Source of the DNA: Marichromatium purpuratum 984
GTDB lineage: Bacteria > Pseudomonadota > Gammaproteobacteria > Chromatiales > Chromatiaceae
Length of the DNA: 64,000 nucleotides
Assembly (NCBI RefSeq): GCF_000224005.2
Contig: NZ_CP007031.1
Span: 979,501-1,043,500 of the forward strand
Direction: 5' to 3'
In this document: piece by piece, positions 9,805 to 20,481 of the stretch
How the letters are laid out: the number at the start of each line of letters is the position of its first letter
How positions within the stretch are numbered: the first letter of the stretch is position 1
Translations under genes and position numbers: made by a program
The notes under the pieces: model-generated
Database searches by the model: none
Seen by the model: the letters and a program-made list of their open reading frames with translations, nothing else
Told to the model about the DNA's origin: nothing

Positions 9805-12800
9805 TCAGCGCGCGCGGCGCGACTGCTCCTGCGCCGACGTGGCGAAGGCGGCGATGAGGTTGAAGCAGGCGCGTGCGTCTTCGGACATGTCGACGAAGTT
9901 GAGGGTGCGCGCGCGCCAGCGCGCGAAGTCGTAATCGCCCTCGAGGTGTTCGAGATCGCGAAAGCCCATGCTCCAGTCGGCGAAGATGCGCTGCTTCAGC
10001 GCTCCTTCGTAGACCACCCGCACGCCATGGTGGCGCGGGTCCTCGCGCAGCTGCTGGAGCAACCGCATGAGGCGCGGTCGGCTGCCCTCGAGCAGCTGCA
10101 TGAAGCTGCCGTTGAGATAGAGCAGGAAGCCGGTGAGCCCCTGGCGTCGGTTGGCCTCACGCGATTGTTTGAGCAGCTCCTGTAGCTCGCGTGGACTCAT
10201 CGGCTCGGCGGACTGGCTGACATAGAGCAAGGCGTAGAGATCGTGCTCGGCGAGCACCGTGGCCTCGGGCGGCGTGGCGCCGAGCAGCTCGCGCATCATC
10301 TGCGCGCTCAGCGGGCGATAGAAGTGGTAGCCCTGAACGTGGTCGCAGCCCATGTCGCGCAGATAGTCGAACTGGCGGGGATTCTCCACCCCCTCGGCGA
10401 TCACCCCGAGACCCATGGCGCGCGCCATGCTGCAGACGGCCGAGACGATGGCGCGGCTGTCGTGGCGCTTGTCGAGCCCGTCGACGAACTCGCGATCGAT
10501 CTTGAGACTGCTCACCGGCAGGCGCAGCAACTGGGCGAGCGACGAGTACCCGGTGCCGAAGTCGTCGACGGCCACCCGCAGCCCGCGCTCGGCGAGCTGG
10601 CGCAACATGCCGAGGTTGAAGTTGACGTTGCTCATCAGCGAGGTCTCGGTGAGTTCCAGCAGGATGCGCTCGGGATCCGCGCCGGTGGCCTCGAGGATGG
10701 CGACGAAGTCATCGACCAGGGTGACGTCGTTGAGCTGGCGCGCCGAGACGTTGACGCTGACGTAAGGGGCGCGCTGGCCGAAGCTCGCGCGCCACTCGGC
10801 CTCGGCCAGACAGGCCTGACGGAAGACCCACTTGCCAATCGGCACGATCGAGCCGTTCATCTCGGCGATCGGCACGAAGTGCGCGGGCGAGACCTCGCCG
10901 GCGCTCGGGAACCAGCGCAGCAGCAGCTCGGCGCCACGGATCTGCTGGGTGTCGACGCTGAGGATCGGCTGGAAGCGAACCTCCAGCTCGTCGCGCTCGA
11001 TCGCCTGGCGCAGCCCGTTGCTGATGTCGAAGCGTCGTCGCGCCTGCTCGTGGATCTCCTCGCTGAACAGCCGCGCGTTGTCGCGTCCCTGCTCCTTGGC
11101 GGAATACATCGCCGCGTCGGCGTTGCGCAGCAGATCGTCGGCATTGTGGGTGGTGCCGTGACCGAGCGCCACGCCGATGCTGGCGGTGGTGAACAGCTGG
11201 TGCTGATTGAGCCGTAGCGGCTCGCGCAGCAGGTCGTTGATGCGCTCGGCGAGTGCGCTGAGGGTTGCCGGGGTGTCGACGCGGTCGCAGAGCACCACGA
11301 ACTCGTCACCACCGAGTCGCGCTACGGTATCGCCGGGCCGGACGTGGTTCACCAGTCGTTGCGCGATGCCCTTGAGCAAGGCATCGCCGGTGGCGTGACC
11401 GTGACTGTCGTTGATCAGCTTGAAGCCGTCGAGGTCGACGAACAGCACGCCCACCCCATGTCCCTGGGTGCGTGACCGGGTCAGCGCGTGGATCAGTCGC
11501 TCGCGGATCAGCGTGCGATTGGGCAGTCCGGTGAGGGTGTCATGCGAGGCGCGCCACTCCAGCTCCTCCTCGGCCACCTTACGCTCGGTGATGTCGCTGA
11601 GAGTGACGACCAGCACCCACTCGCCGTTGCTCATCACCTTGGAGATCGAGGCCGCGGCGGGGAAGGGGGAGCCATCCTTGCGGTAACCGCTGATCTCGGC
11701 GCGCATGCCCATCCGCCGTTCGCACTCCGCCCCGTGAAGAAATTCCTGGATGAGCTGGGCGTGACGCTGACGGTATTGCGGCGGGATGAGTTGCTCGAGC
11801 GCCAGCCCGACCATCTCGTCGCTCCGGTAGCCGAACAGCTCGGCGGCGCGTCGGTTGGCCTCGATCACCACCGACTCGGCGCTGATGGCCAGGACCGCGA
11901 CATCGGCCATCGACAGCATCTGCTCGGGGCCGAAGGGCGAGGCTTGGCTCAGCGATGACGGCTCGGTGTCGATGCAGGCCAGGGTATAGCCGGCGCGGGC
12001 GTCGGCGCGCAGCGTTGGCTCGGCGGCCACGGCCAGCTGGCGCAGGCTACCGTCGCTCAGGCGCGCCTGCAGCATGCCGTGCCACTCGTCGCGCTCGGCC
12101 AGGTCGCGGCGCGCCTCGGCCAGTGATGCGTCGGCCTCGGCCCAGAGTCGGGTGATCGACTCGCCGAGTAGCTCGGACTCCTCGGCGATGCCCCAGAGTT
12201 TGAGCAGGGCGCGGTTGACGTATTCGATGCGGTCGCGGTCGTCGACGCCGACCACGGCGACCTGAGGGACCACCGCCCTGGCCTCGCGCTCGTGGTCATC
12301 GGAGTTGTCACCGGTGTTGTCGGGTTGTGGCCGCGGCAGCAGATAGGAGTAGCGCTCGGGAATCTCGGGGTCGGTGCGACCGAAGGACTCGATGATCTCG
12401 AAGCGCCCGGCGAAGTCGCAACGTGCCAGGTGGCCGTTGACCGCCGCGTGATGGGTGGTCGGGTCCATCCGCACCTCTCCCTGGGGCGCCTCGATGACGA
12501 CCCGCTCGAGCGCCTCGATCAGTGCCTCGGTCTCGACCGAGCCGGCGCAATTAGCCGCCTGGGCGAAGGCGTGCACGCAGACATAGGTCCCCTCGCCGAA
12601 GTTGGTCAGCACGCCGCGCCCCTCGGGGTGCAGCGCCTCGACCTCGGGGAGGGCGGCGAGCGCGCGCAGATAGCGCTGATTGGCCGGGGTGTCGAGGCCC
12701 ATGAAATAGGTGTTGCTCGAGTAGAAGCCTTCGCGGACCTCGGGGGCGAGGCGTGCGGCCATGGCCTCGTCGAAGTGCCCCATGACCACCGCCATGCGTG

Positions 12801-13470
12801 GCTTGAGTCCGAGCTGATCGAAGCGGGTGAGCAGCTCGATCTGATCGGTGCCGGCGAAGTAGGGGACGAAGACATCGGCGCCGGAACGTGCGACCCGGCT
12901 GAGCAGGGCGCCGAGACGGGCGCTGCCGAAGGGCAGGTATTCCTCTCCCACCACCTCACCGCCGCAGGCGGCGAGGGCGCGCTTGGCCGCGTCGATCGAA
13001 CCGCGTGGCCACTCGTAATTGTTGCCGGCGAAGAACATCTTGGGACCGGCCTGCCGCGTCATGTAGGGGATCATGTGCCCGATCTGCTGGTTGGGCAGGG
13101 CGGCGAAATTGAAGAAATAACGGTGGTGGATGCTGCCTTCGTAGAAGGAGAAGTTGAGATAGGGCACGCGGCGTGGCAGCGAGACCTGCCCGGCCACGGC
13201 GATGCGCGAGTTCGACAGCAGGTTGCCGATCAGTGCCACGCAGCGATGGGTGTCGATCAGTCGGGCTGCAGCCGGTACCGCGGTCTCGGGTTGGCTGCCA
13301 TCGTTGATGATCACCAGTTCGAGCGGGCGACCGAGTACCCCGCCGGCGGCGTTGATCTCGGCACAGGCGATGCGCCCGGCCCAGGAGATCTCCGGGCCGT
13401 AGAGCGAGACCAGGCCGGTGAGCGGCGGCATCAGGCCAATTCGGATCGGGGTAGCGATACTGTCCGACAT
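9805..13470 (-). CDS. Multidomain receptor: ligand-binding (Peripla_BP_6-like) + PAS + PAS + GGDEF + EAL + BLUF
   Basis: A 1221-residue protein. Residues 8 to about 380 form a type-I periplasmic-binding-protein fold of the AmiC/FmdD kind (PIRIGLMPPLTGLVSLYG, FFAGNNYEWPRGSIDAAKRA) but have no signal peptide or membrane span. PAS domains follow at about 440-530 and 545-655. The cyclase domain has an intact GGDEF (720-724) with an RPGD inhibitory I-site five residues before it. The phosphodiesterase domain has its motif as E848-L-L, plus NVSARQL, DDFGTGYSSL and LKID. The C-terminal BLUF domain has Y1083, N1107, Q1125 and W1166, with the same spacing as Tyr21, Asn45, Gln63 and Trp104 of AppA. The predicted role is a cytoplasmic switch integrating a small ligand and blue light into c-di-GMP turnover. 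The ATG at 13470 is the first start before the conserved domain. Confidence 0.88.
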   Translation of the reverse strand: MSDSIATPIRIGLMPPLTGLVSLYGPEISWAGRIACAEINAAGGVLGRPLELVIINDGSQPETAVPAAARLIDTHRCVALIGNLLSNSRIAVAGQVSLPRRVPYLNFSFYEGSIHHRYFFNFAALPNQQIGHMIPYMTRQAGPKMFFAGNNYEWPRGSIDAAKRALAACGGEVVGEEYLPFGSARLGALLSRVARSGADVFVPYFAGTDQIELLTRFDQLGLKPRMAVVMGHFDEAMAARLAPEVREGFYSSNTYFMGLDTPANQRYLRALAALPEVEALHPEGRGVLTNFGEGTYVCVHAFAQAANCAGSVETEALIEALERVVIEAPQGEVRMDPTTHHAAVNGHLARCDFAGRFEIIESFGRTDPEIPERYSYLLPRPQPDNTGDNSDDHEREARAVVPQVAVVGVDDRDRIEYVNRALLKLWGIAEESELLGESITRLWAEADASLAEARRDLAERDEWHGMLQARLSDGSLRQLAVAAEPTLRADARAGYTLACIDTEPSSLSQASPFGPEQMLSMADVAVLAISAESVVIEANRRAAELFGYRSDEMVGLALEQLIPPQYRQRHAQLIQEFLHGAECERRMGMRAEISGYRKDGSPFPAAASISKVMSNGEWVLVVTLSDITERKVAEEELEWRASHDTLTGLPNRTLIRERLIHALTRSRTQGHGVGVLFVDLDGFKLINDSHGHATGDALLKGIAQRLVNHVRPGDTVARLGGDEFVVLCDRVDTPATLSALAERINDLLREPLRLNQHQLFTTASIGVALGHGTTHNADDLLRNADAAMYSAKEQGRDNARLFSEEIHEQARRRFDISNGLRQAIERDELEVRFQPILSVDTQQIRGAELLLRWFPSAGEVSPAHFVPIAEMNGSIVPIGKWVFRQACLAEAEWRASFGQRAPYVSVNVSARQLNDVTLVDDFVAILEATGADPERILLELTETSLMSNVNFNLGMLRQLAERGLRVAVDDFGTGYSSLAQLLRLPVSSLKIDREFVDGLDKRHDSRAIVSAVCSMARAMGLGVIAEGVENPRQFDYLRDMGCDHVQGYHFYRPLSAQMMRELLGATPPEATVLAEHDLYALLYVSQSAEPMSPRELQELLKQSREANRRQGLTGFLLYLNGSFMQLLEGSRPRLMRLLQQLREDPRHHGVRVVYEGALKQRIFADWSMGFRDLEHLEGDYDFARWRARTLNFVDMSEDARACFNLIAAFATSAQEQSRRAR

Positions 13471-19431: not shown

Positions 19432-20481
19432 ATGGCCTGTCCGCGTTGTCAGACACTGCCCCTGACGGCCTCGGCGCGGGGCGAGCTGTTGCTGACCTTT
19501 GCGGTGCGCGAGCTGCGCGACAAGTGTCTCGACTATCTCGAACGGGCGATGCTAGTCCATCGGGTCGAGGGGATGGTGGTGCGCCTGCCCGACACCAGTC
19601 TGCTCGGCTTCCTCGAGCGGCTGCGTGCCGATGCGCCGTTCAACATCCTTGAGCGCGAGGGCATCCTGGCGCTGTTGCTCGCCCCCGGCGAGGATCTGGA
19701 TTTTAATGCCTTCACCCGTGCCCACTCGCTGGAGCACTGGTTCGCCCTGCTGGCGGCGCGTCCGTTGCTCGAGATCCTCGAGGCGCAGCGCTTCGTCAGC
19801 TGGTTCCAACCGATCGTCTCGATCGCCGATGGCGCCGTGGTCGGGCACGAGGCGCTGCTGCGCGGGCGGCTGCCGGACGGCGAGCTGATGTTTCCGGGCG
19901 AGATCTTCTCGCTCGCCGCGGCCAACGATCTGTTGTTCCAGGTCGATCGCCAGGCGCGTGCCTCGGCGCTGCACTGCGCCGCCGCCCAAGGACTCGACGG
20001 GTTGCTGTTCATCAACTTCCTGCCGACGGCCATCTACGACCCGGTGCACTGTCTGCGCAGCACCGTCAACTGGGCGCGCAAGCTCGACATCGATCCCGCT
20101 CGGATCGTCTTCGAGGTCGTCGAGACCGAGCGTGTCGGCGACATCGAGCACCTCAAGCGCATCCTTGATTACTATCGCGCCGCCGGCTACCGGGTGGCGC
20201 TCGACGATGTCGGCAGTGGCTACGCCTCACTCAACCTGCTCGCCCAGCTGCGCCCGGACATCATCAAGATCGACATGGAGATCATCCGCGACATCGACCG
20301 CGATCCCGCCCGCCAGTCGATCTATCGCGCCCTCGCCGGCATCGCCGCCGAACTCGGCATCGAACTCCTCGCCGAGGGCATCGAGACCGAGGCCGAACTC
20401 GACTACGTCCGCCGCCATGGCGCCGACCTGGCTCAGGGCTATCTGTTCGGACGGCCCGGTCCCGAGGTGGCTGGTAGCTGA
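19432..20481 (+). CDS. EAL-domain cyclic-di-GMP phosphodiesterase
   Basis: A 349-residue soluble protein. The first 100 or so residues are a small N-terminal domain of unknown type starting MACPRCQ (a CxxC that may bind metal). The rest is an EAL domain with the motif intact (GHEALLRGR), INFLPTAIYDP, FEVVETERVGD, LDDVGSGYASL, IKIDMEIIRDI and AEGIETEAEL. All usual metal and catalytic positions look present, so c-di-GMP hydrolysis is likely. The sequence style resembles the EAL half of BLUF-EAL proteins, but no BLUF domain is attached. The ATG at 19432 has GGAG upstream. Confidence 0.88.
   Translation: MACPRCQTLPLTASARGELLLTFAVRELRDKCLDYLERAMLVHRVEGMVVRLPDTSLLGFLERLRADAPFNILEREGILALLLAPGEDLDFNAFTRAHSLEHWFALLAARPLLEILEAQRFVSWFQPIVSIADGAVVGHEALLRGRLPDGELMFPGEIFSLAAANDLLFQVDRQARASALHCAAAQGLDGLLFINFLPTAIYDPVHCLRSTVNWARKLDIDPARIVFEVVETERVGDIEHLKRILDYYRAAGYRVALDDVGSGYASLNLLAQLRPDIIKIDMEIIRDIDRDPARQSIYRALAGIAAELGIELLAEGIETEAELDYVRRHGADLAQGYLFGRPGPEVAGS

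Follow-up and report, generated by a model that had tools for sequence, protein, structure and literature searches.

Introduction

BlrP1 of Klebsiella and YcgF/BluF of Escherichia coli carry a BLUF photoreceptor domain N-terminal to an EAL domain, and neither protein has a GGDEF, PAS or periplasmic-binding-protein (PBP) domain. PDEA1 of Acetobacter and DosP of E. coli are oxygen sensors of the heme-PAS GGDEF-EAL kind, DosP having no PBP or BLUF domain, and AmiC, which has the PBP fold, binds short amides and has AmiR as its partner, is cytosolic. In the 2017 work of Ryu and co-workers, the protein BldP is said to carry a C-terminal EAL-BLUF module whose activation by light reportedly depends on oxygen, and a truncated EAL-BLUF piece of the Allochromatium vinosum protein was reportedly inactive. 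A 2022 review, citing Ryu et al. 2017, lists BldP of A. vinosum and Magnetococcus marinus in its Table 1 as a BLUF protein with flavin adenine dinucleotide (FAD) and phosphodiesterase (PDE) activity, with blue light marked as “+”, and its available text describes BlrP1 as a PDE under light control (PMC8846402). According to the accessible part of a 2014 review, EAL domains occur in 34% of BLUF proteins, and one BLUF-GGDEF/EAL protein is found in Methylomicrobium alcaliphilum (PMC4844311). Here we analyzed a stretch of 64,000 nucleotides of Marichromatium purpuratum 984 (NZ_CP007031.1, positions 979,501 to 1,043,500; hereafter the window), whose minus strand encodes a BldP-type protein of 1221 amino acids at 9805..13470. 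We consider, with a probability of roughly 0.75, that this window protein is the Marichromatium orthologue of BldP, a soluble enzyme of cyclic diguanosine monophosphate (c-di-GMP) whose EAL-BLUF module would hydrolyze c-di-GMP faster in blue light.

Results

A. vinosum DSM 180 has two BLUF matches, one in a frame of 261 amino acids and the other in a PBP-PAS-GGDEF-EAL-BLUF frame of 1150 amino acids (L046). Overall identity between L046 and the window protein is 67%, and by domain it is 74% for PBP, 51% for the second PAS, 72% for GGDEF, 80% for EAL and 62% for BLUF. Because L046 is the sole BLUF frame of A. vinosum long enough for an EAL-BLUF module, it is most likely the published BldP. It should be weighed against this that we infer the identity of the two, and that what we say of the content of BldP draws on secondary descriptions. 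The window protein has the C-terminal EAL-BLUF module together with the orthology to L046, and is thus most likely a new member of the BldP family. In the available literature on BLUF-GGDEF/EAL proteins and BldP, a search that did not take in the primary BldP paper, we found no description of a PBP domain or a heme PAS in BldP.

The gene starts with an ATG at 13470 and stops at 9805-9807, and its aligned start is conserved in the relatives. All Pfam domains of the product, all on the minus strand, score far above the cut-offs. The N-terminal Peripla_BP_6 domain (residues 8-354, 12409..13449, Pfam 2.1e-67) has a UrtA/AmiC-like Venus flytrap fold, as seen in a model of the A. vinosum orthologue. 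It is followed by two Pfam PAS stretches, the first at about residues 395-508 (11947..12288) and the second, FixL/DosP-like in sequence and structure matches, at residues 516-627 (11590..11925). The GGDEF domain (641-797, 11080..11550, Pfam 3.5e-47) has an exact GGDEF motif at 720-724 with an I-site RPGD (711-714) five residues ahead of it, and the metal residues expected of a diguanylate cyclase are kept, as are D679 and N687/D688. In the EAL domain (820-1053, 10312..11013, Pfam 1.9e-66) the glutamate of the EAL motif lies in ELL at 848, and the metal-binding and catalytic residues checked for an EAL phosphodiesterase are all present (E848, N907, E939, E942, D969, D970, K990, E1026, E1029 and Q1046). 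The chain is closed by the BLUF domain (1078-1169, 9964..10239, Pfam 7.6e-28) with Y1083, S1085, N1107, Q1125, W1166 and M1168; Asn, Gln and Trp follow the Tyr by 24, 42 and 83 residues, which we take to be the spacing in AppA numbering. A sequence-only reading of this stretch had already described the two PAS domains, the intact GGDEF, I-site and EAL motifs and exactly this BLUF spacing, and all of these were borne out.

The model of the A. vinosum protein (1124 residues) has a predicted local distance difference test score (pLDDT) of 83 and well-formed domains, with a low-confidence linker between PBP and PAS at 377-408; its predicted template modelling score (pTM) is 0.63, at which the arrangement of the domains is unreliable. 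Among the structural matches listed, the PAS-GGDEF-EAL of PA0861, DosP and other GGDEF-EAL proteins come first, followed by urea-binding proteins and AmiC. The model alignment held 28 sequences, namely 21 from the set of 22 long proteins described below for the order (all except L054) and 7 others.

The same reading had regarded the combination of domains as unusual, to be given up if the architecture proved common and characterised, and this is largely what we found. BLUF matches were present in 77 of the 210 genomes searched of the order, and all 22 BLUF frames longer than 1000 amino acids (from 20 genomes) showed the order PBP-(PAS)-PAS-GGDEF-EAL-BLUF, 14 with only the second PAS and 8 also with the first. 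We further scanned bacterial and archaeal species genomes with an alignment of the PBP domain and analyzed the best 80 of 184 relatives, 7 of which were dropped as duplicates of genomes already present. The BLUF layout was found in 43 of these 80, in several phyla, and PBP-PAS-GGDEF-EAL with no BLUF match in 20, two of which are cut by contig ends. In all, 58 distinct full-length proteins with the BLUF layout were gathered, and A. vinosum most likely provides a characterised one. Since it is carried by records named Gallionella, Sideroxydans, Hydrogenovibrio, Methylomonas, Magnetospirillum and Desulfamplus, and by a Nitrospirae and a Myxococcota metagenome-assembled genome, the layout does not seem to be tied to photosynthesis.

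The PBP domain is also found in other company. Eight other PBP relatives were scanned with Pfam, and seven of them (L098, L101, L103, L111, L114, L125 and L138) have it fused to PAS and HisKA histidine-kinase domains, while the frame of the eighth stops after the PAS. As these fusions occur in other bacteria, the PBP domain is a sensor module shared with other signalling proteins. Shortened forms occur as well. A frame at L035:6413-9013 (genome G025) keeps PAS-PAS-GGDEF-EAL-BLUF with most of the PBP domain gone (in the stretch retrieved, the match covers only some 50 residues), and L038, L057, L058, L059 and L060, from the same bacterial family, are GGDEF-EAL-BLUF frames of 589-656 amino acids with no PBP or PAS matches. 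The latter five and the partial L035 and L062 were left out of the family alignment, the residue census took in only loci that have both GGDEF and EAL, and the two profiles of the order were built from 17 and 16 of its 22 proteins.

We also considered BLUF as a recent one-off fusion and rejected it, since a tree of 78 sequences needs 7 changes of the BLUF state, at least 4 of them forced by well-supported branches. In this tree, made by a quick method and unrooted, a 99% branch separates 10 BLUF-less rows from all 58 BLUF-bearing rows, which have 8 BLUF-less rows among them; the rows cut by contig ends, L119 and L137, were left out of the state count. We read the pattern as one gain of BLUF and several losses, with no root inferred. 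The tail of L137 resembles the start of a BLUF domain.

Comparison among the 58 BLUF-bearing proteins separates what is fixed from what varies. The EAL residues E848, N907, E939, E942, the DD pair, K990, E1029 and Q1046 are present in all 58 and E1026 in 57; Tyr, Ser, Asn, Gln and Trp of BLUF are likewise invariant, M1168 is kept in 56, and the EAL-BLUF linker measures 23-26 residues in every protein. The GGDEF motif is exact in 24, reads AGDEF in 22 and takes other forms in 12 (SGDEF, SADEF, GADEF and GRCEF among them). Because the EAL and BLUF residues are near-fixed while the GGDEF motif varies, hydrolysis appears to be the constant output, and we infer that light-controlled hydrolysis is the conserved function of the family. 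Some members would use the GGDEF domain as a cyclase, and in the rest it may act as a relay that responds to GTP or c-di-GMP.

The sequence-only reading had suggested instead that blue light controls both c-di-GMP synthesis and hydrolysis; a flip in the sign of the net GGDEF and EAL activity would be one way of doing so. Going by its motifs, including the I-site, D679 and N687/D688, the window copy indeed resembles an active cyclase under c-di-GMP inhibition, so that it may have some cyclase activity; 55 of the 58 relatives keep the I-site, and a bifunctional light-switched cyclase-phosphodiesterase, SesC, is listed in Table 1 of the 2022 review (PMC8846402). However, an exact GGDEF in just 24 of 58 beside a fixed EAL (AGDEF alone is no proof of inactivity), the attachment of BLUF to the EAL end, and the entry of BldP solely as a PDE in the same table make such two-way control quite improbable. 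Light-driven hydrolysis remains our reading of the output.

The second PAS points to another input. In sequence, the solved structures closest to it are FixL, DosP and the heme PAS of FG214. When a PAS profile was used, these three took up the top 14 places among 60 listed solved sequences (E-values of 3.7e-19 to 9.8e-13 over the whole chain, which for full DosP chains include two PAS stretches; FixL 1d06, with one stretch, gives 1.4e-18), and the next is a LOV protein at 9e-10. In an AlphaFold model of this domain (123 residues, pLDDT 84), His570 (codon 11761..11763) is model residue 57 and lies in a helix at 51-65, at the place in helix F where FixL and DosP carry their heme-ligating His. 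Foldseek, which also uses sequence, places heme PAS chains at all of ranks 1-28; one entry, 10jx, is described as the heme-binding PAS of FG214, whose proximal heme ligand is His156 according to the available text of a 2026 preprint (PMC13060918). The His is present in all 78 relatives, 58 with BLUF and 20 without. The second PAS therefore has both the closest homology and the helix F His by which heme PAS domains of the FixL/DosP type are recognized in the accessible part of a published analysis (PMC10468136). Of 11 relatives that lack GGDEF-EAL in frame (7 proved to be kinases), none has a His at this column of the first PAS, where nine show other letters and two have gaps. A later PAS of L139, one of these 11, has the His, as do L122 (GGDEF in frame) and L105 (the frame ends after PAS).

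Several observations weigh against a heme. The distal Arg is not where it would be expected, since FixL Arg220 and DosP Arg97 align with Ala591, and DosP Met95 aligns with a position that is variable in the family. Structural realignment barely separates the classes (Z 17.8 for FG214, 16.7 for FixL, 16.6 for 3lyx, 15.0 for LOV and 14.9 for NifL), and among control PAS domains, 11 of the 28 rows filled at this column also show a His; three of these rows (L010, L022 and L032) share the helix-F context by eye. Arg590, adjacent to Ala591 and conserved in 57 of 58, was considered as the counterpart of FixL Arg220 and rejected, as the alignments place Ala591 there; structure was likewise set aside as heme evidence by itself, because other PAS domains score close behind. 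Met587 is kept in 77 of 78, and one could speculate that it serves as the distal ligand.

The second PAS could instead be a structural dimerisation domain, or bind flavin or another ligand, with the conserved His playing a structural role. Apart from the control rows, the missing Arg and the poor structural separation, this would fit with the fact that 11 positions of the domain, not the His alone, show the same residue in 77 or more of the 78 sequences. It would also fit with the statement in the available text of PMC10468136 that 60% of the FixL/DosP cluster has this His as an invariable residue, from which we conclude that membership in the cluster alone is no proof of heme. We regard this as a substantial possibility, short of even odds: the closest solved sequences and the Foldseek matches are heme PAS domains, the column lacks His in the first PAS of all 11 aligned relatives with no GGDEF-EAL in frame (two of them gaps), and the published analysis singles out the helix-F His. 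On balance, we consider it somewhat more likely than not that the second PAS binds heme; its likeness to heme PAS domains was missed by the earlier reading.

The N-terminus of the window protein shows no signal-peptide-like or membrane segment, as judged by hydropathy alone: the best 19-residue stretch starting in the first 45 residues reaches 1.28. The two highest values along the entire chain belong to the interior of the PAS (1.84 at 518) and EAL (1.78 at 1007) domains, and the highest N-terminal values of the relatives (up to 1.75 over 15 residues) fall upstream of the chosen start codons. The PBP domain should therefore be cytosolic, in agreement with the earlier description of a soluble ligand-sensor-like domain with no signal peptide. 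That description had also called the domain AmiC-like; AmiC is among the solved fold matches, but it matches somewhat less well than the urea-binding proteins of the UrtA type, which are the nearest solved chains.

This relationship raises the possibility of a urea or short-amide sensor that couples nitrogen supply to c-di-GMP. The nearest solved relatives bind urea and amides, and in our alignment UrtA Ser122, Tyr190 and Glu146 correspond to S86, Y152 and E111 of the window protein. The remaining urea-contact residues, which the available text of PMC10392092 calls strictly conserved in UrtA homologues, are replaced: Gln144, Asn246, Trp120, Tyr141 and Ser274 read F109, A206, L84, L105 and H232. 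Of the four residues that hydrogen-bond urea in UrtA (S122, Q144, Y190 and N246), two are thus kept and two replaced, which weighs against urea bound in the UrtA manner. Nor did the genomic neighbours name a ligand. We clustered the frames on either side of 94 loci, which are the 101 loci of the family after removal of 7 duplicates, and among the first 25 clusters, judged with no family-library scan, no conserved neighbour indicated the ligand and none was recognized as a shared nitrogen or amide gene. The largest cluster touches 20 loci and the next 6; most clusters of 5-6 loci consist of close relatives, and of the few mixed ones, one looks by eye like an ATP-binding cassette (ABC) transporter ATPase. 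We consider a urea or amide sensor unlikely.

Segments at or near the urea-contact sites are nonetheless near-fixed in the 58 proteins (N83 in 58, YLN in 53, FYEG in 56, PNQQ in 57 and NYEW in 53). As these pocket segments hardly vary while the urea contacts are partly replaced, the alignment suggests that the family shares one ligand, which is not urea bound in the manner of UrtA, and the near-fixed pocket across phyla means that it is probably the same compound everywhere.

The host genome is a single contig of 3,779,112 bases, and Marichromatium gracile and M. bheemlicum are among its closest matches. A convergent plus-strand frame adjoining the gene looks by eye like parE, and an upstream frame on the same strand as the gene looks, likewise by eye, like a peroxiredoxin. 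A second BLUF protein of the genome (137 amino acids, Pfam BLUF only) lies at G000:C1:201809-202084 (L039:5681-6094, minus strand). The window holds another EAL domain at about 19768-20457 on the plus strand, within a frame of 394 amino acids, and the genome has 25 EAL matches in all.

Discussion

In our picture, the window protein is an enzyme of c-di-GMP that is soluble and probably forms a dimer. Blue light would alter the hydrogen bonds around the BLUF flavin, and the C-terminal BLUF domain would push on the EAL domain so that PDE activity rises and c-di-GMP falls. The second PAS probably holds heme b via His570 and reports oxygen or the redox state, and the ligand on which the UrtA/AmiC-like domain at the N-terminus would close is probably a small metabolite of the cytosol, and not urea in the manner of UrtA. 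These PAS and PBP inputs may set the strength of the light effect or bias GGDEF against EAL. We tentatively propose, at just under even odds, that BldP-type proteins are three-input integrators, in which a cytosolic metabolite sensor, a FixL/DosP-type heme PAS and BLUF gate one c-di-GMP enzyme. A heme PAS would explain the oxygen dependence that is reportedly seen in the light activation of BldP.

If the heme reading is true, light, oxygen or redox state and a metabolite would be combined in one protein that sets c-di-GMP, and this integration would occur in purple sulfur bacteria as well as in lineages not known for phototrophy. The behaviour of the published optogenetic parent protein could then be tested by a single His mutation. 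The PBP clan, too, would gain a cytosolic example; the available text of the 2022 review calls its domains periplasmic and, in c-di-GMP networks, studied just for SBP_bac_3 (PMC8846402). The probable heme PAS and the ligand of the cytosolic PBP domain are the parts worth following.

Compared with the known systems, the window protein shares with BlrP1 and YcgF/BluF, as far as their available descriptions go, the presence of BLUF and EAL in one chain, whereas its BLUF domain is C-terminal. Like DosP and PDEA1, it has a FixL/DosP-type PAS with a helix-F His ahead of GGDEF-EAL; the position of DosP Arg97 is Ala in the window protein, where the heme is predicted. Its PBP domain has the same fold as UrtA and AmiC (template modelling score 0.84-0.90 by target length, with the A. 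vinosum model). UrtA has a predicted signal peptide, as stated in the available text of PMC10392092, while the window protein has no such N-terminus by hydropathy, has the urea contacts partly replaced, and is fused to c-di-GMP enzymes. The closest system is A. vinosum BldP, if it is L046, which has the same domain order from PBP through BLUF and lacks the extra first PAS that the window protein has.

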